Shown here piece after piece: positions 14,568 to 34,270 of a stretch of 38,449 bases of DNA; within the stretch, counting starts at the first letter, position 1, and each line of letters opens with the position of its first letter. The position numbers and the translations under genes were made by a program. A model generated the notes under the pieces. The model worked only from the letters and a program-made list of their open reading frames with translations. It ran no database searches and had not been told where the DNA came from. The stretch covers positions 1-38,449 of IMG/VR virus record IMGVR_UViG_3300033571_009183; one strand, written 5' to 3'. The DNA comes from a virus.

Positions 14568-17500
14568 ATGCCCGACACCTTCGACACCTCGAAACTGGTA
14601 CCCCTCGACGTCAGCGGTTTGGTTCCGCTGAAGGAGGAGCCGAAGCTGGACTTGGGCGGCCTTGTTCCGCTCAACACCGCGGGGCTTGTGCCGGTCGAGG
14701 CAACCGCACCCGTCGCGCCGGCGCCCGTATCAACCGCCACCACGGCCGCTCCGCGGGCTGGCTTTGGCTCATTTGTCGACTCCGCCCAGCGCAGTTACTA
14801 CGAACACGGCGTCAACAACTACATCAAGGAAAAGTTCGACAACGCCGCCTACCTAAACCGACTCCGCGCGGGCGGGAAGGTCGAGCCGATGGAAGACGGC
14901 GCATTCAGCGCCGAACAGCAAAAAGCCTTCTACGACCTGTCTATGGCCGGGAAGTCTGGCAGCTCTCCAGAAGCAAGGGCCGCTGAAATCGCCCGAGTCG
15001 AGCGAAGGGTTCTTGAGTTGAACGACATCATCAAGGCCGAGGAAGCGAAGCGTGTCGGCGTAGGACCAGAAAGCGCGCAGAGCATCAGCCTCGGCCAGGC
15101 TCTCGAGAAGGCCAATCAAATGCCGACAGTCGGCGGACGCATCGGTAGTTCGTTTGGCGCATTGATAGACAACGCCGGCGGCATCCCGGACATGGTCGCC
15201 GGTGGTGCATACGGAACGGCGCGGCCCATCGCTGGCGCGCTTGCCACGGCCCTCGTCACGCGCGGGTCCGGCCTAGTCGCTCGCGTCCTTCCGGAAATCG
15301 TCAGCGGCGCCATCACGCTCAACGACTCCCAGGTCGGCATCGTCGGCGAGCTGATGCAGAAGATGGCGCAAAAGCGCGGCTTCGACATCCGCAAGAACCC
15401 GGAGATGATGGATGCGCTGATGAACGACGTCGACTTCGTCGAAGACGTCCGACAGGAAGCACTCCGAGGCGGCACAAGCGACGCCATTTGGACCGCCATT
15501 TCCACCCGCCTCGGCCTGTCGCCGAAGATCAAGGGCGTGTGGCAGCCCATCGTGCAAGCCGGCGCCGAGTCGGCGACGACCGCCAGCCAGGGTCTTTTCC
15601 GAACCGGCGAGGTTGACGTCGCGCAGACCGTCGCAGCGTTCCCGGCAGGCTTTGCGATTGAAGGTCCCAGCTTCGCCATCGGCCGTGGGATTGATGCCAT
15701 CAAGGCCAACGTCGCATCCCGAGGTTCGACGGCGCCGGCCACCCCGGCAGCCCAGCCGGCGGCTGCCCCTGCTCCAGCGCCGGCAGCCCCCGTTGCTGCT
15801 CCCGCCCAGCCTGGCGTAGATCCGACGACCCTAGCCGGAGAAGTTCCCGCTCCAGCCGCTCCAGCTGCGGAAGCACCTGCACCCGCTACGCCGGCCGCAG
15901 ACCCTCTTCAACTAGAAGTCGAACGTCGGCAACTTGAGTCTGATTTCATCGCCGCATCTGATGCGCACTTGGCTGCGTTTCAAAGGTTGAGTGCCATCAT
16001 CGACGAACTAGGAGTCGATCACCCGGACGCAATCGCTGCAAAACAGGAAATGGATGCAGCCGGATCTGCCCTCGAAGCTGCAAGGGTTGCCCTCGAAGCA
16101 AAGACCGCGGAAGTCCAAGCGGCCAACGTCGCCGCGGATGCGGCCCGCAACACCCCGCCCGCTCCTCAAGCAGCTCCTTCTGCCCCGCCCGCTACTCAAG
16201 CTGTCGTCGCCCAAGGAAGCGTACCACCGCGTCCTATTTATGATGACCGCTTTTCCGGAAAAGGGCAGGCCGGTCTAAATGACTTTGTTGCTGCCGTAAA
16301 AGAGTGGGATGAAAAATACGGAAAGACGCATTTGTTTGACGGTACGCCCAAGGAAGCCCAAGCCCAAGCCCAGGTCGCTCCCGCCGTTCCCGCCGCTCCT
16401 GCCGCTCCCGCACCCACTACCGCTACGGCAACTCCTGCCGCTCCGGCTCCGGCAGATGGTGCTAATCTACGCAATTCTGCGGAGAATACGGCTCCCCAAT
16501 CTACGCAAGCCCCGGCGGCTCCCGCCGCATCTTACGACGGCGGCGACCCGCGTAACGACCCGCGTTTCGCCGACCTCGACCGAGACGACAAGAGCGAACT
16601 GCGCCGCGCCTTCTCGACCCTCCAGAAACTCCAGGAGCGTCGAGCCGAGGCTGCCGCCAACGGCAACCCGACCAACCGCCTGGATGACCAGATTGCCCGG
16701 TTGAAGGCAAACATCGGCGAGACGCTGGGCGACGGTAAGCCCGCTCCCCAGCAGCAAGCCCAGCCCGCCCAGCCTGCACCCGCTCCTGCGGCTCCTGTAG
16801 CCCCGCAAGCCGCCGAGGTGACTCCTACCCCTTCCCCGCAGGCCCAGACCGCCCCAGCCCCTGCCAGCGACACGCAGACCGCCCAGCAGGAAGCCCCTGC
16901 CCAGCCCGCCCCCACCCAGACCCCCGTCCAGAAGCCGTCCTTCGTCGCCGGCCTGCGCGAGGACGCCCGCAAGCTGCGGGGCGAGGGCATCCCCCAGACG
17001 CCCCCCGCCAAGCCCCTCCCGCCGCGTCCCGAAGCCGCCGTCCCGGTCGACCCGAACGACCCGCAGACCGACCCGCGCTTCAAGAACCTCAACCGCAACC
17101 AGCGGGAGCAGGTCAACGTCGCCCAGAACAAGATCAACAACGACCTCAAGACCCGCGCGCAGGCCGTGCGGGATGGACGTTCCACCAAGAACCTGGACGA
17201 CCGCATCGCCAAGAATCGCGCCGAAGTCGAGCGTGTGCTGTCCGGCGCGCCGAAGCCCCCGAAGCAGGCGAAGCCAGCCAACGCCCCTGTCGATCCCAGC
17301 GCCACGCCCATCGACCCTACGGCTCCCGAAGAGCAGTCCGCCACGTCCGAGGACGACCCGGAGGTACAGGCCGCCAAGTTCCCGAACCCCAATCCGGACC
17401 TGGATAATCCTATCAAGAACGATTTGGCCGACTTTAACGAACAGCGAGCCGCAGAACTTGAGAAGACCGCCCAGGAAACGGACGACCCAGACCTGAAGGA

Positions 17501-20500
17501 CAAGTTCCAGCGCGAGGCTAAAGCTCTACGCAACCGAGCCGAAGCTATGCGCCGGGCCGATAACGAACAGGCCGTCCGGGATAGCCAAGGACAGGCGCGT
17601 CCCATCAACCGGGACGACGACGGCAATCCGCAGGCGAACCGCCCCGACGACGAGGAAGACGACGGCAGCGGCCGGGCCGAATACTCTCCGCGTCGCAAAG
17701 AGACGCCGCTCGAGGACCTGGTCAAAACTGACATTATGCGCGGCGGAAGGCCAGCGTACCGCGACGCCAAGGGGCCAAAGGCCAAGCCAGAGACTGTTTT
17801 TGAACTACTCCAGAATGGCCTTGCCCAGCAGAAGCCGGTCAACCCCAACATCGCCTACAATCTTGCGGAGGGCAAGTACGCCCCTCTGAAGGTCAAGGTC
17901 GAGGGCAACGGTCTGACCCTCCGCATCGGCAACATGACGGAGAGTTATTCCGTCGACAACCAGTCCCGGGATGGCTGGCGTGGTATCATCGAAGACATCC
18001 GCAAGCGTCACGAAGGGAAGTACGACACGGTCGTCATTGAATCCGTCGCCGGCTCCAAGCCGGCGGCAAAACCTCTTACCCAGGCCGACACCCAGGCCGA
18101 CACCAAGGCGCAGGGCGAAATCGACGACGACCTTGCGGAGTTCATGGACCAGGGCGGTGAAAGTTGGAAGGCCAACAAGACCGCCGGAGAGGTTCTCCAG
18201 AAGATCGTCGACCTCAACGGCCGTCTCGCCCCCATCGCCAAGGTGCTTCTCGCATTGGGTGACAAGGTATCCCTGTCCAGGCGCGTCACCACGGGAGACG
18301 TGGATGGCGGCCGATGGACGCCTCTGAAGAAACTCGGCATCAACGGCGAACAGTTCCCCGACGACGGCGATCCGTTCAAGTACGGCGAGGAAATCTTCAT
18401 CGGCGGTCAAGGTTCTTCGTTCGGCGGAAAGAACTTTTCGTACGTCGAGGACACCGCCATCGAGGAAATCCTCCACGCCCTCACGGCGTCGAAGTACCCC
18501 AAAGACCTTCGCACCCAGCTCGGCGAGAAACTAAACAGAAAGGCCAGAGGTAATATTGACGTATCCAAGTCTAGGGCGGAGATTGAAATCGCCGTAGCCA
18601 GGGAATACGCCAAGAACGGCTCCAACAAGGAGTGGCGCGACCTGTGCCGCGCGTACGTTGCCTTCGTCGACAAGCGCGTCGACAGCAAGAAGTTCAAACC
18701 GGGCGACCCATTCCCGAGCGGCATCAACTACCGGGCGTCAAATCTGGCCGAGTTCATGGTCGGCGCGCTTTCGGAAAAGGAAGTCCAGGACATCCTGGCC
18801 GGCATCAAAGACCCCGACCAGAAGCAGTCCCTGCTCCAGACCTTCATCAACGCCGTCAAGCAGGTGTTCGGTTTCACCGACGCCCAGATGAAGTCCATGC
18901 TCGGCACGGCCGTCTCGTCCATCGAGAAGATCACGTCGAGCGAACGCACCCTCAAGGAGGGTGAAGGTATGTACGGCCCTCTCGACGCGGATGAAGCCGA
19001 AGAGGTCGCCAAGGGCGAATACGCCCCTGGCAAGCCGGCTAACGAAGCCGACCCGGAGAACTACTTCAAGAAGACCAAGCCCGGCCAGAAGCTCGGAAGC
19101 GACGGCCTGCCCATCCGAGATCAGACCGGGCTTCCTAGTTACTTGGAAGTAGGACACAAGGGCTGGAAGGGAAGGCTCATCGGCGCAGGCCGAGAGGGAA
19201 GTATCCTGTGGGGTAGGTACGATGGTGGAGCGATTGAATCAAAGAACTCCAAGTTGAACAAGGATGGACGAAGCCAGGTAAACCACGGCGAATGGTTCGG
19301 GGATGCCGACCAGCAGGGCCGCATGGAGCCTCCTGTGGTCAAAGACGGCAAGATCACCGAGAAGGGCCGCATCTCCATCATCACGATCCTCGGAGCGGAC
19401 GCAACGAAGGAAGAGGTTCGCCAAGCAAGGGAGTACGCAGCCAAGGAGTTCTCGAAGCGACTCCGTATCGAGGTTAAGCCGTCAGACTTCGACGTATTTG
19501 AGTACGGGATGGATAAGGATGCGAGGGCCGCAAAGTACGGCATCAGCCGCGACGACACGGGGCCTGTCCTTCGCTCGCCAAGCCCGCAGAGCAGGTTGCA
19601 GGCGCAGACCGAAGGCAAGGGCGTCGTCACTCCCGACGGAGACGTAGCCAACCATACGGACGCAAACCTGGCGAAGCGTGGCTTCGTGTCTGCCATCTCC
19701 GACGAGAAGCTATCCGATAAAGATCGCGGTTCCCTTTCGATGGATTTCGAGTTTGTCGATGAACAGTACTTCAAAGGTTACGTCGGAAGGATTCGTCGCA
19801 AAGGAAAGGAAGTAGGCCGCATCGAGGTCGAGTACGACGAGCGTAAGTCCGTCGCACGAATCGGTGAATCACATGTCGACGATGGCGAGCGAAACAAGGG
19901 ATACGGAACCATCCTTTATGCCGAGGCTGGCGAGCGTCTTCGACGAATGGGTGCCACCAAACTTACTGGCGACCTTGCTAACTCCGAAAGCGTCCCGCTC
20001 ATAATCCGCGAGAAGGTCTTCGGCGACGGATCTACAAAGGTTACCTACAAAGGCGACGAGATGTCCGTCGGTGACTTCCGAGGAATCAACCCGGACAATG
20101 TTGACTGGGGTGGTCTTTTCGGCCCGACCATCGAAACCGAGGTTCCGCAACTTACGCCAACCGCGCAGAAGCTTGCGCAAGAAATCAAGACCGCAGCAAA
20201 GGGTAACCCGGAAACGGCTGCAGCTCGCATCAAGGCCGCCTTGGACAAGTGGGAGGCGGAGGTGCTTGGAAAGCCTGGTGAGAATCGCCTGTTCTCTCCC
20301 GGACCTGACACCATCGCAGCAATGGCCTACCGCCTGTCGAAGGACGCCGCCGCCCACGCAGCCGGCTTCGCCAAGTGGGCCGCCCAAGCGGTCAAGGACT
20401 TCGGCCAGAAGATTAAGCCTTTCCTCAAGGACATCTGGGCCAAGAGCCAGAAGATGCGCCAGGCCGGTGCCGACATCGTCACCTTCCGCTACCTGTCCAG

Positions 20501-22874
20501 CCGTGCGGACAAGATGTGGCAGAACGCCTCCCGCAACCCACAGTCCAAGACCCTCCGCGACCTGGCGAACCTGATCTTCACCAAGCAAGGACCGGATGCG
20601 GACGCCGCCCAGAACGACATCCCGACCCGCATCCAGACGGTCCGTACGCAGTTCAACAATGCCTACGCCAACATCCTCAAGCCGTTCGCCGACGACTTTG
20701 CGAAGATGTCGAAGCAGCAGCTCCAAGAGTGGGACGCCAAGTTCCGTCGCGCGGTCATCGGTATAGACCCGATGCCGGACGGCAAGCTTGGCGAAGCCGT
20801 CCAGAAGTTCCGCAAGCTGTCGTCGCAGTTGCTGGCCTACCAGCGCAACGCCGGGATGGATATCGGCGACGCCGGCGAGGGCTACTTCCCACGCTCCTAC
20901 GGCGCCGACGCCGTCGCGGAGAACACCCCGGCCTTCGTCGAAGCCGCGGCCAAGGCTTACGAGATGCGGAACGAACGCCTCCGCAATCAAGCCCTTCAGG
21001 ATCTCGAGAGGAACGCGGCCGCCCGCGCCGAGATGCTCAAGCAGCGGGACAAGGACGCCGGCCGCCAAGTCAAGACCGACGCCGAGTACCAGGCCATTGT
21101 CGACGAGTGGTACGCCGAGCAGCAGGACAAAATCAACGCGGAGTTCGACAAGACTACCGAGGACTTCAAGAAGATGGCGTCCGACTGGGCCTTCCGCATC
21201 CAGAACGGCAAGGTCGACGAACTGTCCCTCTACGAGGGCGGCGCTCTCGAGGCGACGATGCCCGACCACGCCGACCCCCGCACCTTTACGGACGCCGAAG
21301 CCGCCCTGCTCGACCAGTTCCTCGACAAGGACATGGACAAGCTGATGGCCCGGTACATCGCCTCGGCCGTCAAGAAGACCGAAGCCGCCCGTGCCTTCGG
21401 GGCGAAGGGCGAGAAGTTCGGCCAGATGATGTCCGCCCTCCAGTCCGAGAACGTTGACGCCGGCACCATCGAGGAGACGGCCGACCTCATCCGCCGATCT
21501 CTGGACATCGGCACCGACCGCCCGACCGGGCTGATGGCGAAGGTCATCGACTGGTCGAACGCCATCATCTCCGCCGGCTACCTCGGCTTCTCCTTCGTCA
21601 ACAACGTGCTGCTCGAGCCGGTGTCCTTCGGCATCCGCACGGGCAACGCCTACCTCGCACTCAAGGGCGTGGCGGAGACGTGGAAAGCCTTCACCCAAGA
21701 ACTGGTCAACTCGCCCGGCCTACAGCGAGGCATCAAGCGTGCCTACGGCACGAAGTTGGAGTTCGCCCGCTCGGTCAACAAGGCTATCTCCGAGGACCTG
21801 GGCCTGCTACACAACGAAATCGAACGCACCCACCTAGGCAGCCATTGGGACTACGGCTCCGAAACCGAGGGAAGCCCCGTCGCACGCTGGCTCACCCAGC
21901 GTGTGCAGATGGGCAACCTCATGGCCCAGACGGAACGCGCCAAGATCCAGGCTTCCGTCGCCATCGCACGCCTGGCCGTACGCAACAACGTACGTTTCTA
22001 CCTCGGCGAAGCCCCCCTCCAGAAGCTGCTCGCCAAGGCTGGTCTGAATGCCAAGGCCGACGCCTCGTCCAAATCGATGCTCCAGGAAATCGGTGTGCCG
22101 GCCGAGGACCACGACTCCTTCGCCAAGTTCGTGATGTCCCTCGACGGGATGTCCGACGCCGAGTACCAGCAGGCCGTCTACGGAGACAGCCGGGAAGCCG
22201 CCCTATACCGCCAGGCCATCCAGCGGATGAGCGTCGGCCTGTCCATCAAGACCAACCCCGCCCTCAAGATGGCCCGGGCCGACCGCGTCGAGGGTCGGTT
22301 CATGATGCAGTTGATGAACTACTCGTACGCCTACGCGAACCTCGTCAAGGACCGCATGTACGACTCCGCCCTCAAGGCCGCCAACCCCAAGGCCAAAATC
22401 TCCGCGATGGACAGGCTCCGCTACGCCGCCCCTCTGATGGTCGGCGCCCCCCTCGCCATCATCGCCTCCGAGGCTGGCAAGCAACTGGTCGGCGCCCTCT
22501 GGCCGTCCGACGGCACGGACGACCGCGATGAACTGGAGGACTGGCAGAAGATCTTCGACTCCTCGTCCTACGCCGGCATGTTCGGCAAGAAGGTCGAGTA
22601 CCTAACCAAGATCCTGCTCCGCGACCAGATTCCCGTGGGCGTCGTCCCCGAGGCCGGCGCCAAGGCCCTCGGCGCGTCCTTCAAGTCCCTCGCCGGGAAG
22701 GATTCCGACGCGATGGACAAGCGCGCCGCAAAGCAAGCCTATCAGGTCGGGGTCAAGCCTGGCGTGATGATGGGTGCTTCGGCAGTCCATCCCTTCTTCG
22801 GCTTCCTCGCCAACCAAGCCCTCCGCCAGCGGGATACGCGGGACGCCTTCGTCGAAGGCATGGCCGGCGAGTAG
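14568..22874 (+). CDS. Giant polyvalent ejection protein (gp16-position, 2768 aa)
   Basis: The largest gene, at the T7 gene 16 place; roughly twice T7 gp16. Order of parts: four LVPL-type repeats (residues 10-45); helical core (60-370); Ala/Pro linkers (about 385-660) holding a 68-residue module that recurs after another linker (660-727, 831-898); a zincin-like domain with E1299-E-I-L-H1303 in place of HExxH, followed by NLAEFMVGALSEKEVQ and NAVKQVFGF, typical of polyvalent-protein zincins; an unrecognised domain (about 1525-1690); a GNAT-like motif A, RNKGYGT (1775-1781); and a helical domain with GEGYFPRSY (Tyr2106). The C-terminal part has apolar segments near 2328-2355 and 2620-2645 and the RFMMQLMNYSYAYANLVKD pattern of ejection proteins. 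No transglycosylase site was recognised. It probably enters the cell with the DNA, forming a channel and delivering effector domains. The stop is TAG, with another in-frame TAG 18 nt later. Confidence 0.78.
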   Translation: MPDTFDTSKLVPLDVSGLVPLKEEPKLDLGGLVPLNTAGLVPVEATAPVAPAPVSTATTAAPRAGFGSFVDSAQRSYYEHGVNNYIKEKFDNAAYLNRLRAGGKVEPMEDGAFSAEQQKAFYDLSMAGKSGSSPEARAAEIARVERRVLELNDIIKAEEAKRVGVGPESAQSISLGQALEKANQMPTVGGRIGSSFGALIDNAGGIPDMVAGGAYGTARPIAGALATALVTRGSGLVARVLPEIVSGAITLNDSQVGIVGELMQKMAQKRGFDIRKNPEMMDALMNDVDFVEDVRQEALRGGTSDAIWTAISTRLGLSPKIKGVWQPIVQAGAESATTASQGLFRTGEVDVAQTVAAFPAGFAIEGPSFAIGRGIDAIKANVASRGSTAPATPAAQPAAAPAPAPAAPVAAPAQPGVDPTTLAGEVPAPAAPAAEAPAPATPAADPLQLEVERRQLESDFIAASDAHLAAFQRLSAIIDELGVDHPDAIAAKQEMDAAGSALEAARVALEAKTAEVQAANVAADAARNTPPAPQAAPSAPPATQAVVAQGSVPPRPIYDDRFSGKGQAGLNDFVAAVKEWDEKYGKTHLFDGTPKEAQAQAQVAPAVPAAPAAPAPTTATATPAAPAPADGANLRNSAENTAPQSTQAPAAPAASYDGGDPRNDPRFADLDRDDKSELRRAFSTLQKLQERRAEAAANGNPTNRLDDQIARLKANIGETLGDGKPAPQQQAQPAQPAPAPAAPVAPQAAEVTPTPSPQAQTAPAPASDTQTAQQEAPAQPAPTQTPVQKPSFVAGLREDARKLRGEGIPQTPPAKPLPPRPEAAVPVDPNDPQTDPRFKNLNRNQREQVNVAQNKINNDLKTRAQAVRDGRSTKNLDDRIAKNRAEVERVLSGAPKPPKQAKPANAPVDPSATPIDPTAPEEQSATSEDDPEVQAAKFPNPNPDLDNPIKNDLADFNEQRAAELEKTAQETDDPDLKDKFQREAKALRNRAEAMRRADNEQAVRDSQGQARPINRDDDGNPQANRPDDEEDDGSGRAEYSPRRKETPLEDLVKTDIMRGGRPAYRDAKGPKAKPETVFELLQNGLAQQKPVNPNIAYNLAEGKYAPLKVKVEGNGLTLRIGNMTESYSVDNQSRDGWRGIIEDIRKRHEGKYDTVVIESVAGSKPAAKPLTQADTQADTKAQGEIDDDLAEFMDQGGESWKANKTAGEVLQKIVDLNGRLAPIAKVLLALGDKVSLSRRVTTGDVDGGRWTPLKKLGINGEQFPDDGDPFKYGEEIFIGGQGSSFGGKNFSYVEDTAIEEILHALTASKYPKDLRTQLGEKLNRKARGNIDVSKSRAEIEIAVAREYAKNGSNKEWRDLCRAYVAFVDKRVDSKKFKPGDPFPSGINYRASNLAEFMVGALSEKEVQDILAGIKDPDQKQSLLQTFINAVKQVFGFTDAQMKSMLGTAVSSIEKITSSERTLKEGEGMYGPLDADEAEEVAKGEYAPGKPANEADPENYFKKTKPGQKLGSDGLPIRDQTGLPSYLEVGHKGWKGRLIGAGREGSILWGRYDGGAIESKNSKLNKDGRSQVNHGEWFGDADQQGRMEPPVVKDGKITEKGRISIITILGADATKEEVRQAREYAAKEFSKRLRIEVKPSDFDVFEYGMDKDARAAKYGISRDDTGPVLRSPSPQSRLQAQTEGKGVVTPDGDVANHTDANLAKRGFVSAISDEKLSDKDRGSLSMDFEFVDEQYFKGYVGRIRRKGKEVGRIEVEYDERKSVARIGESHVDDGERNKGYGTILYAEAGERLRRMGATKLTGDLANSESVPLIIREKVFGDGSTKVTYKGDEMSVGDFRGINPDNVDWGGLFGPTIETEVPQLTPTAQKLAQEIKTAAKGNPETAAARIKAALDKWEAEVLGKPGENRLFSPGPDTIAAMAYRLSKDAAAHAAGFAKWAAQAVKDFGQKIKPFLKDIWAKSQKMRQAGADIVTFRYLSSRADKMWQNASRNPQSKTLRDLANLIFTKQGPDADAAQNDIPTRIQTVRTQFNNAYANILKPFADDFAKMSKQQLQEWDAKFRRAVIGIDPMPDGKLGEAVQKFRKLSSQLLAYQRNAGMDIGDAGEGYFPRSYGADAVAENTPAFVEAAAKAYEMRNERLRNQALQDLERNAAARAEMLKQRDKDAGRQVKTDAEYQAIVDEWYAEQQDKINAEFDKTTEDFKKMASDWAFRIQNGKVDELSLYEGGALEATMPDHADPRTFTDAEAALLDQFLDKDMDKLMARYIASAVKKTEAARAFGAKGEKFGQMMSALQSENVDAGTIEETADLIRRSLDIGTDRPTGLMAKVIDWSNAIISAGYLGFSFVNNVLLEPVSFGIRTGNAYLALKGVAETWKAFTQELVNSPGLQRGIKRAYGTKLEFARSVNKAISEDLGLLHNEIERTHLGSHWDYGSETEGSPVARWLTQRVQMGNLMAQTERAKIQASVAIARLAVRNNVRFYLGEAPLQKLLAKAGLNAKADASSKSMLQEIGVPAEDHDSFAKFVMSLDGMSDAEYQQAVYGDSREAALYRQAIQRMSVGLSIKTNPALKMARADRVEGRFMMQLMNYSYAYANLVKDRMYDSALKAANPKAKISAMDRLRYAAPLMVGAPLAIIASEAGKQLVGALWPSDGTDDRDELEDWQKIFDSSSYAGMFGKKVEYLTKILLRDQIPVGVVPEAGAKALGASFKSLAGKDSDAMDKRAAKQAYQVGVKPGVMMGASAVHPFFGFLANQALRQRDTRDAFVEGMAGE
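16545..17261 (+). repeat. Duplicated 68-aa module inside the giant protein
   Basis: Copies at 16545-16748 and 17058-17261 encode 68 residues each and align without gaps. Shared positions include DPxxDPRF, LxR, NG/DG, LDDxIA and GxxKP. The copies are separated by a Pro/Ala/Gln linker. Predicted as two short helical hairpins. The duplication is old, since only about a third of residues match. Confidence 0.75.
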
Positions 22875-27340: not shown

Positions 27341-28192
27341 ATGATCAAAATCATCAAGGCTGACGACCGCCTCAAGGCCGTCCCCAAGGTCAACATCGCC
27401 CTCTTCGGCCCGGCCGGCGTGGGCAAGACGACCCAGGCCCGCACGCTCGACCCCAAGACCACGCTCTTCGTGGACCTGGAGGCCGGCACCCTCGCCATCC
27501 AGGACTGGGCTGGCGACGTCATCGACGTCCGCGCCGTGGCTCAAGAGTACGGCAAGTTCCCGTGGGAAATCGCCCGCGCCCTGGCCCTGTACATCGGCGG
27601 CCATGACCCGAGCGACCGCGACGGCGCCTACTCCGCCGCCATCCACGCCAAGGTCGCCGAGGCTTTCGCGGCCATCGACCTCAAGAAGTACGACACGATT
27701 TTCATCGACTCCATCACGGTCGCCAGCCGCGAGTGCTTCAAGTGGGCGAAGGTCCAGCCCGAAGCCCAGTCCCGCGACGGCAAGCCGGACACCCGCGGCG
27801 CCTACGGTCTGCTCGGGCAGGAGATGATCCGCTGGCTGACCCACCTCCAGCATTGCCCCAAGTCCATCGTCGTGTCTGGCATTCTCGACCAGGAGGTCGA
27901 CGACCTCAAGCGCGTGAGCTGGGTTCCGCAGGTCGAAGGGTCCAAGACCGGCCGTGAACTGCCGGGCATCTTCGACCAGGTCGTGACGCTCCAGAACTTC
28001 AAGCAGGAAGACGGCACCCTTTACCGTGCCTTCTGCTGCCAGCAGCAGAACCCTTGGGGTTACCCCGCCAAGGACCGCTCCGGCCGCCTCGAGTTGCTGG
28101 AAGCCCCGGACCTGGGCGCCCTCATCAAGAAGATCCGCTCGGGCAAGCGTGTCGACGCCACCGTCGTCACGACTATGCCCTCCGCCAAGTAA
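27341..28192 (+). CDS. Sak4-like RecA-family recombination ATPase
   Basis: A 283-residue P-loop ATPase with Walker A GPAGVGKT (residues 23-30) and Walker B YDTIFIDS (Asp123). The text LFVDLEAGTLAIQDW and LTHLQHCPKSIVVSGILDQE fits the phage AAA_24/Sak4 group, RecA-related proteins shorter than RecA that anneal single strands with the help of an SSB. Immediately downstream is an SSB-like gene, the usual partner. Start ATG follows AACACAC, a leader shared with the capsid and SSB genes. Likely role: recombination-dependent repair and replication of phage DNA, together with the nucleases at 30.8-32.2 kb. Confidence 0.8.
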   Translation: MIKIIKADDRLKAVPKVNIALFGPAGVGKTTQARTLDPKTTLFVDLEAGTLAIQDWAGDVIDVRAVAQEYGKFPWEIARALALYIGGHDPSDRDGAYSAAIHAKVAEAFAAIDLKKYDTIFIDSITVASRECFKWAKVQPEAQSRDGKPDTRGAYGLLGQEMIRWLTHLQHCPKSIVVSGILDQEVDDLKRVSWVPQVEGSKTGRELPGIFDQVVTLQNFKQEDGTLYRAFCCQQQNPWGYPAKDRSGRLELLEAPDLGALIKKIRSGKRVDATVVTTMPSAK

Positions 28193-32239: not shown

Positions 32240-34270
32240 ATGAAGTACGTATCCGTCTGCTCTGGCATCGAAGCCGCAACCAATGCTTGGCACAAGTTCG
32301 GATGGACGCCCGTGGCGTTCTCCGAGATTGAGCCTTTCCCCGCTGCCGTCCTCAAGCATCGCTTTCCCAACACACCAAACTATGGAGACCTCACCCAATA
32401 CAAATCCTGGCCCATCGAACCCGGTTCAATCGACCTTCTGGTCGGAGGAACACCTTGCCAGTCATTTTCCGTCGCAGGGCTGCGGAAAGGACTTGCCGAC
32501 CCCCGAGGTAACCTCTGCCTCACCTTTCTTGGGTTGGCTGACCACCTACGCCCCCGCTGGATCTTGTGGGAAAATGTTGTCGGAGTGCTATCAAGCGGCG
32601 GAGGACGGGACTTTGGTTCCTTCCTCGGGGCGCTGGGCCAGCTCGGGTATGGGTGGGCCTATCGGATTCTCAACGCTGAAAACTTCGGAGTGCCACAGCG
32701 GCGTCGGCGAGTGTTCGTCCTGGCCTACCGCAACCCTGTCACAGGTACTGGAGACTGGCGAGTTGCCGCAGAGGCTCTATCTGTCGGCGAAGGCTTGCAG
32801 AGGTATCTTGCGCAGGGCAAGTCGTCGCGGAAAAAGCCTGCCGCCGATGTTGCAGAAGGCGCTGGAGCGGGTAGCCCTGTCGGAGCCGGAGCTACCGGAG
32901 GATTTGGAGTCGGAGCCGGATGCTGGTGGGACGGAGGACAGGTAAGCCAGACGCTCGACGCCGTGCTGGCTAAACGCCAGACGATGCCCGACAAGAACCG
33001 CTTCCCCGCCGTCCTTCAGCCCGTCGTGATTGACAGGGCTGCGTTCAACCAGGGGGAGAACGCCCAGTACGAACCGCACATCGGCGAGTCGGAGGTGATG
33101 GATACCGTCGTCGCTCGCGGTCCTCACGCCGTCGGTGTGCCGCTGATGTTCAAGATCCGCGGCGGCTCGCCGACCGAGACTGGCGAGCAGGGTGGTACGC
33201 CCGGCAAGGTTGCCGGCAAGGGCTTCCTCGGCTCCGAGGACAAGGCATTCACCGTCGCCACCAGCCAAGATCAATGGCTGGCCCAGCCGGTCGTCGCCCC
33301 CACCGTCACGACCTGCAAGGGCAGCAAGGGCGGTTGCTCCGACGAGGCCATCGCCGAGATCACCGCGGTCCACCTAGCCCAGCAGGCTATCCCCATCCAG
33401 GACGGCCGCGAGATTGAGAAGAAGCAGAACGGCATCGGCGTCGGCCAGCCGGGCGACCCTGCTTACACCCTCGACACCACCGGCGCCCAAGCCGTAGGCC
33501 AGCCCTTCATCGTCCAGGCCAGCGAGCTACGCCTCGCCGACAAGATCACCGAGCAGCAGGTCTGCCCGACCCTCAAGGCCAACACCAAGGGCGGCGACAC
33601 CGAGCCGCTCGCCGTCCACCCTGTCCCCTTCCGCAAGAGCAAGCGTGCGCAGTCCGAGACGGACGACGAGACGTGGGTCGCCGACGAGAAGGCCAATACC
33701 CTCAATTGCTTCGACCAAGGCGACACCCGCACCACCCACGCGGTCGTCCAGCCGCAGGGCGTTGACCTCTACAACCAGACCCTCACAGGGGATGTCCACG
33801 TCCCGCTCCGCACCGCGGGCGGTCATGGCGCCCCGGCCGTAGCCTTCCAGCCGGGCAACCTTGTTCGTCGGGTTGGTGCCGACCCCAGCACCAAGGTCTT
33901 CCCGACCTTGACCACGGCCAGCGGCGACCAGTCCCCGCATGTGGCCGCCCCTGTCGCCTTCGACGCCTACAACCAGACCATCTCCAACACCAGCCAAGCC
34001 GTCCGCTCGGCGGCCAGCGACGTCGACCACGTCGGCGCGGTGTTTGACGCCCCCACGATGGTCGTCCGTCGCTTGAGCGTGAACGAATGCCTACGTTTAC
34101 AGGGCTTCCCCGACAACTGGACGAACATCCCTTGGAAGGGCAAGCCCGAGGGCCAAGCCCCCGACGGCCCGCAGTACAAGTGCGCCGGCAACTCGATGGC
34201 CGTGCCGTGCATGTCCTGGATCGCCGAGGGCATCATCCGCGTCGAAGCCAAGCTCAAGGCCAAGGGTTGA
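32240..34270 (+). CDS. C5-cytosine DNA methyltransferase
   Basis: This 676-residue enzyme transfers methyl from AdoMet to cytosine C5. Motif I VCSGIEAA (6-13), motif IV GGTPCQSFS (Cys73 catalytic), motif VI WENVVGV (Glu111), motif VIII VPQRRRRVFVLA (151-162), motif IX RRLSVNECLRLQGFP (about 610-624), and motif X CAGNSMAVP (Cys648-). Between VIII and IX there is a 440-residue insert, far beyond a usual target-recognition domain, with repeated YNQT (twice), LNCF and PTL strings. Such low-complexity inserts are common in phage enzymes. It probably protects phage DNA from host restriction. ATG 32240 (leader CCAACACCCAACCT) is preferred; the frame is open upstream to 31928 without protein-like sequence. 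A different ORF is embedded at 32283-32945. Confidence 0.87.
   Translation: MKYVSVCSGIEAATNAWHKFGWTPVAFSEIEPFPAAVLKHRFPNTPNYGDLTQYKSWPIEPGSIDLLVGGTPCQSFSVAGLRKGLADPRGNLCLTFLGLADHLRPRWILWENVVGVLSSGGGRDFGSFLGALGQLGYGWAYRILNAENFGVPQRRRRVFVLAYRNPVTGTGDWRVAAEALSVGEGLQRYLAQGKSSRKKPAADVAEGAGAGSPVGAGATGGFGVGAGCWWDGGQVSQTLDAVLAKRQTMPDKNRFPAVLQPVVIDRAAFNQGENAQYEPHIGESEVMDTVVARGPHAVGVPLMFKIRGGSPTETGEQGGTPGKVAGKGFLGSEDKAFTVATSQDQWLAQPVVAPTVTTCKGSKGGCSDEAIAEITAVHLAQQAIPIQDGREIEKKQNGIGVGQPGDPAYTLDTTGAQAVGQPFIVQASELRLADKITEQQVCPTLKANTKGGDTEPLAVHPVPFRKSKRAQSETDDETWVADEKANTLNCFDQGDTRTTHAVVQPQGVDLYNQTLTGDVHVPLRTAGGHGAPAVAFQPGNLVRRVGADPSTKVFPTLTTASGDQSPHVAAPVAFDAYNQTISNTSQAVRSAASDVDHVGAVFDAPTMVVRRLSVNECLRLQGFPDNWTNIPWKGKPEGQAPDGPQYKCAGNSMAVPCMSWIAEGIIRVEAKLKAKG
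32574..32945 (+). CDS. Overlapping ORF inside the methyltransferase (ILRRAxxRGK family)
   Basis: Frame 3, wholly inside the methyltransferase gene. It encodes EDGTLVPSSGRWASSGMGG, STLKTSECHSGVGECSSWPT, ATLSQVLETGELPQR and LYLSAKACRGILRRASRRGK, followed by SLPPMLQKALERVALSEPEL. I recall this as a recurrent phage protein family (LS[AP]KACxGILRRAEKRGKxLP), found alone or fused to methylase C-termini. The methyltransferase frame in the same bases reads low-complexity Ala/Gly text (AADVAEGAGAGSPVGAGATGG), as if this frame were the constrained one. ATG 32574 starts a 123-residue product; the frame is open from ATG 32283. A -1 shift near 32900 would join it to the methylase C-terminus. Function unknown. 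Confidence 0.5.
   Translation: MLSECYQAAEDGTLVPSSGRWASSGMGGPIGFSTLKTSECHSGVGECSSWPTATLSQVLETGELPQRLYLSAKACRGILRRASRRGKSLPPMLQKALERVALSEPELPEDLESEPDAGGTEDR

Follow-up and report, generated by a model that had tools for sequence, protein, structure and literature searches.

Does a reading frame that lies open inside a phage gene for cytosine-5 DNA methyltransferase (DCM) encode a second protein? We analyzed a stretch of 38,449 nucleotides from a virus (IMG/VR record IMGVR_UViG_3300033571_009183), which we call the window. By its match to PF00145, the DCM protein of the window is a good C5-methyltransferase (Table 1), and its reading frame (frame 0) holds all of the motifs: I-VIII plus IX-X. Between motifs VIII and IX there is an unusually long, repeat-like insert of about 370 residues (32950-34060; e.g., VDLYNQTLTGDV / AFDAYNQTISNTS), which an initial reading of the sequence (the first-pass annotation) had described as repeat-rich. 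The genes that neighbor the DCM are involved in replication or recombination; by far the largest ORF in the window is 2768 aa long (14568-22874). The +1 frame of the DCM is open from 32244 to 32945, with its first ATG at 32283 and its second at 32382. The first-pass annotation had drawn attention to the ORF at 32283-32945, which does exist and whose translation contains all three of the peptides that were quoted from it. It had proposed that either two proteins share the DNA or a -1 shift near 32900 joins the methylase C-terminus onto the hidden ORF. The stop-codon tests and the purifying selection on both frames support the sharing of the DNA by two proteins, and judging from this evidence and from its homologues, the hidden ORF is almost certainly a real overlapping gene.

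Table 1. Features of the DCM gene and of the hidden gene within it (positions in the window).
Feature	Position	Strand	Description and basis
DCM (cytosine-5 DNA methyltransferase)	32240..34270	+	676 aa, frame 0; PF00145 (E = 1.3e-51), TIGR00675 (1.4e-48)
Hidden overlapping gene (most likely extent)	32382..32945	+	+1 frame of DCM, 187 aa (METSPNTNPGPSNPVQSTFWSEEH...GGTEDR, stop TAA); homology, stop-codon tests, and selection tests
Most likely start codon, ATG	32382..32384	+	Overlaps DCM Tyr-Gly codons (tAT GG); conservation in relatives
Upstream extension of the open frame, as assumed in the first-pass annotation	32283..32381	+	In relatives, stops at chance level and no detectable selection
QSTFW, beginning of the conserved hidden protein	32427..32441	+	Many relatives have a QL[T/D/S][F/L/M][F/W/L] motif at the same position
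Dual-coded part A	32427..32732	+	Frame 0 is DCM motifs IV-VIII; hidden frame Ser/Thr-rich, predicted mostly disordered
Dual-coded part B	32733..32891	+	C-terminal helical domain encoded in the hidden frame (LSQVLETGELPQRLYLSAKACRGILRRASRRGKSLPPMLQKAL); weak conservation of the DCM frame
DCM motif IV, Pro-Cys-Gln (catalytic Cys)	32453..32461	+	Sequence, alignment
DCM motif VIII, QRRRRVF, the final canonical motif ahead of the frame displacement	32696..32716	+	Alignment
DCM motif IX (RRLSVNECLRLQGFP), frame 0	34067..34111	+	Sequence

Homologues of the hidden translation were found in many phage and plasmid records. Among phage records, 108 matched, and nearly all of the matches listed lie within DCM or methylase genes; a few are labeled as hypothetical, and the two of these that we looked up (Mycobacterium phage Phoebus gp122 and Pseudomonas phage zjk6) are DCMs themselves. 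With a P1-type query (from Escherichia phage JL22), 135 phage records matched, P1 included. A search of plasmids matched 527 records, which are mostly from Escherichia and are annotated as Dam or dmt; there is also a match to the family, with no gene listed, in a plasmid of Bifidobacterium breve (NZ_KM406416.1, 114029-114310). The relatives identified by tblastn with the hidden frame include P1, CP-T1, Javan phages, and Omegaviruses, and the hidden gene is present in dmt of P1 and in phages of Vibrio, Caulobacter, Streptococcus, and Mycobacterium. So as not to bias the sample towards the hidden frame, we also fetched 80 IMG/VR loci by alignment of the DCM frame alone. The hidden protein is present in all 80 of them: 76 have no stop codon across the match, and four have one stop just beyond the C-terminal domain. 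DCM-like N-termini are found in 1779 phage records, so the overlay is confined to one part of the DCM family.

The first-pass annotation had taken the hidden peptides as the signature of a separate phage family. They do define a real family of sequences, but one that lies inside a DCM gene in every sufficiently long locus that we examined; the single locus without a DCM match is cut by the end of the contig. A free-standing copy next to an intact DCM was not found, and what comes nearest is gp104 of Mycobacterium phage Thibault, whose DCM is split by an HNH gene; gp104 is the hidden part, annotated in the hidden frame. It is the only annotated hidden-frame protein that we saw (the hidden gene is almost never annotated), and it is also the best match in BFVD, which therefore leads back to the same family. 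No family was found for the hidden protein in Pfam or NCBIfam, or for the window's protein in PHROGs. Among 30 hidden proteins, 26 matched PHROG 16143 (“DNA methyltransferase,” 139 positions; best 4.6e-13, profile positions 59-133), with the window's own protein unmatched, and PADLOC gave two single weak matches. In the open-access literature, which our search covered, we found no earlier report of the hidden gene or of the overlap.

Could the hidden frame be open by chance? For the DCM protein of the window, with the codon usage of its gene, 3.9 hidden-frame stops would be expected on average in the overlap, and the probability of zero is 0.011. The choice of codons in the DCM also changes within the overlap: among its glycine codons, GGA accounts for 19 of 35 inside the overlap versus 0 of 42 downstream, and the GC3 of the DCM is 0.63 in part A and 0.52 in part B versus 0.87 downstream. 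For 44 divergent loci of the DCM-fetched set, we redrew the DCM codons synonymously, following the codon usage of the respective gene. Upstream of the hidden start, which serves as a control, stops in the hidden frame are at the chance level (44 observed versus 54 expected; just upstream, 41 versus 48). From the first conserved codon (codon 0) onwards, there are no stops at all, versus 31, 53, 72, 59, and 55 expected in successive sections. The loss of stops is sharp and is positioned at the start-codon region. As expected for an overlapping gene, the second frame is open beyond chance given the first protein.

The second frame is also under purifying selection, which is likewise expected of an overlapping gene. 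At the four-fold third sites of the DCM frame, the identity between loci is 0.29 where only the DCM is encoded, 0.56 in part A, and 0.81 in part B, so synonymous variation is reduced in the overlap. In part B, variability peaks at the third position of the hidden codons and not at that of the DCM codons. We then estimated dN/dS for both frames at once across 87 independent pairs (a simplified OLGenie-type count, made with our own script rather than the published program). For the hidden frame, dNN/dNS was 0.25 [0.16-0.40] in part A and 0.07 [0.04-0.10] in part B; for the DCM frame, dNN/dSN was 0.03 in part A and 0.21 in part B; and for the third frame, a control, the values of 1.83 and 4.24 indicate no purifying selection. 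Changes that are synonymous in the hidden frame predominate in part B (378 NS versus 131 SN). Along the hidden gene, there is no signal upstream, codons 1-30 are not significant (0.60 [0.10-1.85]), and selection is significant from codon 31 onwards. Overall, purifying selection acts on both frames, and the hidden frame of the C-terminal part is where it is strongest. The suggestion that the hidden frame is the more constrained one where the DCM turns low-complexity (around 32730-32880) is supported: identity is 0.69 in the hidden frame versus 0.42 in the DCM frame, in line with the ratios of 0.07 and 0.21.

Within the open frame, the relatives indicate where the gene begins. Before 32382, they show no selection on the hidden frame and frequent stops, so the gene most likely starts at 32382 and, by this comparison, most likely spans 32382-32945 rather than 32283-32945. 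The end at 32945 stands as the first-pass annotation had placed it; the start at 32283 most likely does not, and the stretch 32283-32381 is probably not translated. The ATG itself is favored in the relatives. In loci without a later ATG, the DCM codon for Tyr, His, Asn, or Asp ends in T (which creates the ATG) in 49 of 53 cases, as compared to a background of 42% (P = 1e-14); where another ATG is present, it does so in 8 of 21 (Fisher P = 2.7e-6). Some clades (the MNQSTFW class) have an in-frame TAA directly 5' of the ATG and an AGGAG upstream. Among 163 loci whose start region we scanned, 40 have no ATG and would need TTG or GTG, or a later start in the P1-type clade. A TTG recurs at one fixed position in many of the ATG-less loci listed; others belong to the P1 type, with the start further downstream. 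These conserved internal starts suggest that the hidden protein is translated from a start codon of its own.

In the window, no Shine-Dalgarno sequence was found at the hidden start (32382), and it is likewise absent at the start of the DCM and of several other genes. The starts at 27341, 28220, 32240, and 32382, none of which has a Shine-Dalgarno sequence, share an AC-rich context (CCAACACAC-like), which suggests that this phage uses another mode of initiation.

What might the hidden protein be? Given 142 relatives, AlphaFold predicts the N-terminal two thirds mostly with pLDDT below 60 and a helical domain at residues 119-167 with a core pLDDT of 91-97. When the C-terminal domain is predicted alone, the same helices are obtained (H36-49 and H55-67, core pLDDT 95-96). 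Searches of the PDB by sequence and by fold gave nothing significant for the hidden protein; sigma domain 2 was the best result by fold, but its VIA-align Z of 4.1 (the maximum) is not interpretable.

The DCMs themselves were more informative about the C-terminal domain. Directly after motif VIII, the DCM frame of Klebsiella phage Prick1 and that of E. coli Dcm themselves encode GDILEPDNDQYTISDRAWKGFRERKER or a 29-letter counterpart. We built a profile of this canonical segment from 28 in-frame segments that follow motif VIII (26 of them from bacterial genomes, with DCMs drawn from 299 genomes). HHalign aligned the hidden C-terminal domain to this profile at 94% (P = 1.4e-7, score 42), whereas none of 25 controls, reversed or column-shuffled, scored above 16.5. 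When the same DNA is read in the DCM frame, it aligns to motif VIII alone, and the third frame gives no alignment. A comparison of single sequences with E. coli Dcm gave no significant score, so the homology is visible with profiles only. By profile comparison, then, the hidden C-terminal domain is homologous to the segment that follows motif VIII in ordinary C5-methyltransferases, and we think it likely that the domain arose by displacement of that segment of the enzyme. The segment is likewise in the +1 frame in Streptococcus phage Javan584 and in a Brochothrix phage.

Three phages have unusual arrangements of this region. In Thibault (locus L265, 1817-3618), the HNH endonuclease gene lies in the DCM directly after motif VIII and adjoins the displaced segment. 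In Phoebus (locus L084, 2754-4000), motifs IX-X of the DCM are in a different frame from motifs I-VIII, so the DCM is broken or frameshifted. In Vibrio phage 1.088.O (locus L262, 2910-3530), an internal deletion has removed motifs II-VIII from the DCM, and a remnant of the hidden domain can still be read.

We consider it probable, taking the explanation as a whole, that this is an overlapping gene that carries a displaced segment of the methyltransferase and may encode a partner that acts in trans. In the simplest history, an indel after motif VIII would have shifted the segment into the +1 frame, with a compensating change further downstream, and frame 0 would now read a different linker where the segment used to be. 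A new start within motifs II-IV would then have made the displaced stretch part of a protein of its own, the N-terminus of which is overprinted and mostly disordered; this order of events is what we infer. Both proteins would be made from one mRNA. The small protein may supply or regulate the hinge region from which it came, as in C5-methyltransferases of two polypeptides. We place the role of partner first because the protein appears to derive from the hinge region of the methyltransferase and would share its mRNA, but the assignment is tentative.

The N-terminus of the hidden protein is QLxxF-like in many relatives (QLTMF, QLDLF, QLGLF, and similar peptides) and may tether the pair to the DnaN sliding clamp. 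Both the bacterial clamp motif QL(S/D)LF and a clamp-binding toxin, SocB, have been described (PMC9690074). The pattern Q[LMF]x[LMFIV][FWL] occurs at the N-terminus in 45 of 76 unbiased loci versus 0.6 expected and, with the hidden start at a different position of the DCM, in 18 of the 45 loci that belong to the P1/CP-T1 clade versus 0.3 expected; in both comparisons, the observed counts are inflated by shared ancestry. The window (QSTFW, whose QSTFW-type relatives also do not have the strict consensus), P1 (MQLTTN), and CP-T1 (MQSTNN) deviate from the motif, so the clamp reading stays a lead, and we regard binding to the clamp as less likely than not. More broadly, it is conceivable, and we offer this with reservations, that the enzyme split itself by an indel and that both products now cooperate, possibly at the clamp, in phages that infect Proteobacteria, Firmicutes, Actinobacteria, and others, P1 included.

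Among the alternatives, the one that fares best is that the hidden protein has nothing to do with the methyltransferase and is a small clamp-binding phage factor (an N-terminal QLxLF-like peptide plus a helical domain), with the replication of the host or of the phage as its target. The occurrence of the clamp-like pattern in two DCM contexts, far above the synonymous null, would fit such a factor, as would the replication or recombination genes nearby. We nevertheless consider it unlikely, given the deviating peptides of P1, CP-T1, and the window and a C-terminal domain that appears to descend from a methyltransferase. Alternatively, a programmed +1 frameshift just after motif VIII could yield a truncated methyltransferase that ends in the displaced domain and has no TRD, with the hidden frame further upstream not being protein at all. 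This would restore the canonical order (motif VIII and then the displaced segment) and would agree with the rise in hidden-frame selection towards the C-terminus. But the stops disappear sharply at the start region, at least 200 nt upstream of motif VIII (0 versus 31 and 53 expected in the first two sections); that region has conserved start codons and, in some clades, conserved Shine-Dalgarno sites as well; and hidden codons 31-60 are under significant selection. We consider a frameshift of this kind improbable.

Explanations that do not involve a second protein fare much worse. A constraint on the DNA or RNA (a structure, a regulatory signal, or a target site) should also suppress synonymous variation, but in part B the tolerated changes track the hidden codons, the pattern spans 140 codons, and there is no match in Rfam; this explanation is already largely contradicted and seems highly improbable. 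That the displaced segment is an untranslated fossil, similar between phages because of the DCM frame alone (which is indeed under selection in part B), is already contradicted by the dual-frame substitutions, with the hidden frame being the more conserved one in part B and free of stops, and has almost no chance of being correct. Finally, the -1 shift near 32900 is not supported, as there is no conserved slippery site: a -1 slippery heptamer lies within 150 nt of the hidden stop in just 16 of 243 loci, the window has none at 32820-32945, and the position of the stop varies from 18 to 198 codons past GILRRA.

The overlapping gene that we favor would encode a protein that is conserved in well-studied phages (P1 dmt, CP-T1) and is left out of almost every annotation, since gene callers do not allow long overlaps. 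If the proposed origin is true, it is a clear case of a gene that was born when part of its host gene was shifted to a different frame, and the parent sequence of the displaced segment is still recognizable in ordinary relatives. It is also a warning that mutants made in dmt-type genes affect two proteins. The presence of the gene in P1 and other laboratory phages makes the hypothesis directly testable.

The closest report that we found is of ShiLan-type insertions, in which HNH endonucleases are encoded out of frame within phage methylases (PMC11855218). As in our case, there is a second ORF in another frame of a phage DNA methylase, and the methylase frame stays open. However, the ShiLan-type ORFs are inserted homing endonucleases with a patchy distribution (PMC11855218), whereas here there is no insertion, the ORF overlaps DCM motifs IV-VIII, it is present in 80 of 80 relatives, and it is homologous to the methyltransferase itself; nor did we find an HNH family in the hidden frame with Pfam, NCBIfam, or PDB sequences.

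M.EcoHK31I and M.AquI are C5-methyltransferases of two polypeptides (PMC3404938). As in these enzymes, segments of a canonical C5-methyltransferase would be divided here between two polypeptides of one locus, with the HHalign result placing a canonical segment on the second polypeptide. The division differs: the small subunit carries motif IX in EcoHK31I and motifs IX-X in AquI, whereas here the large protein retains both IX and X (for the position of motif IX in the DCM frame, see Table 1), and of the canonical segments the second ORF has just the one that follows motif VIII. The small subunit of EcoHK31I is also read in another frame. Canonical C5-methyltransferases such as E. coli Dcm and the DCM of Klebsiella phage Prick1 have the homologous segment in frame, right after motif VIII, and need no second ORF, whereas in the clade of the window the segment sits in the +1 frame. 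Rz/Rz1 of phage lambda is another overprinted pair, with one gene embedded in another frame of a second gene, as here. The proteins are different, and in our case the nested protein appears to derive in part from its host gene.
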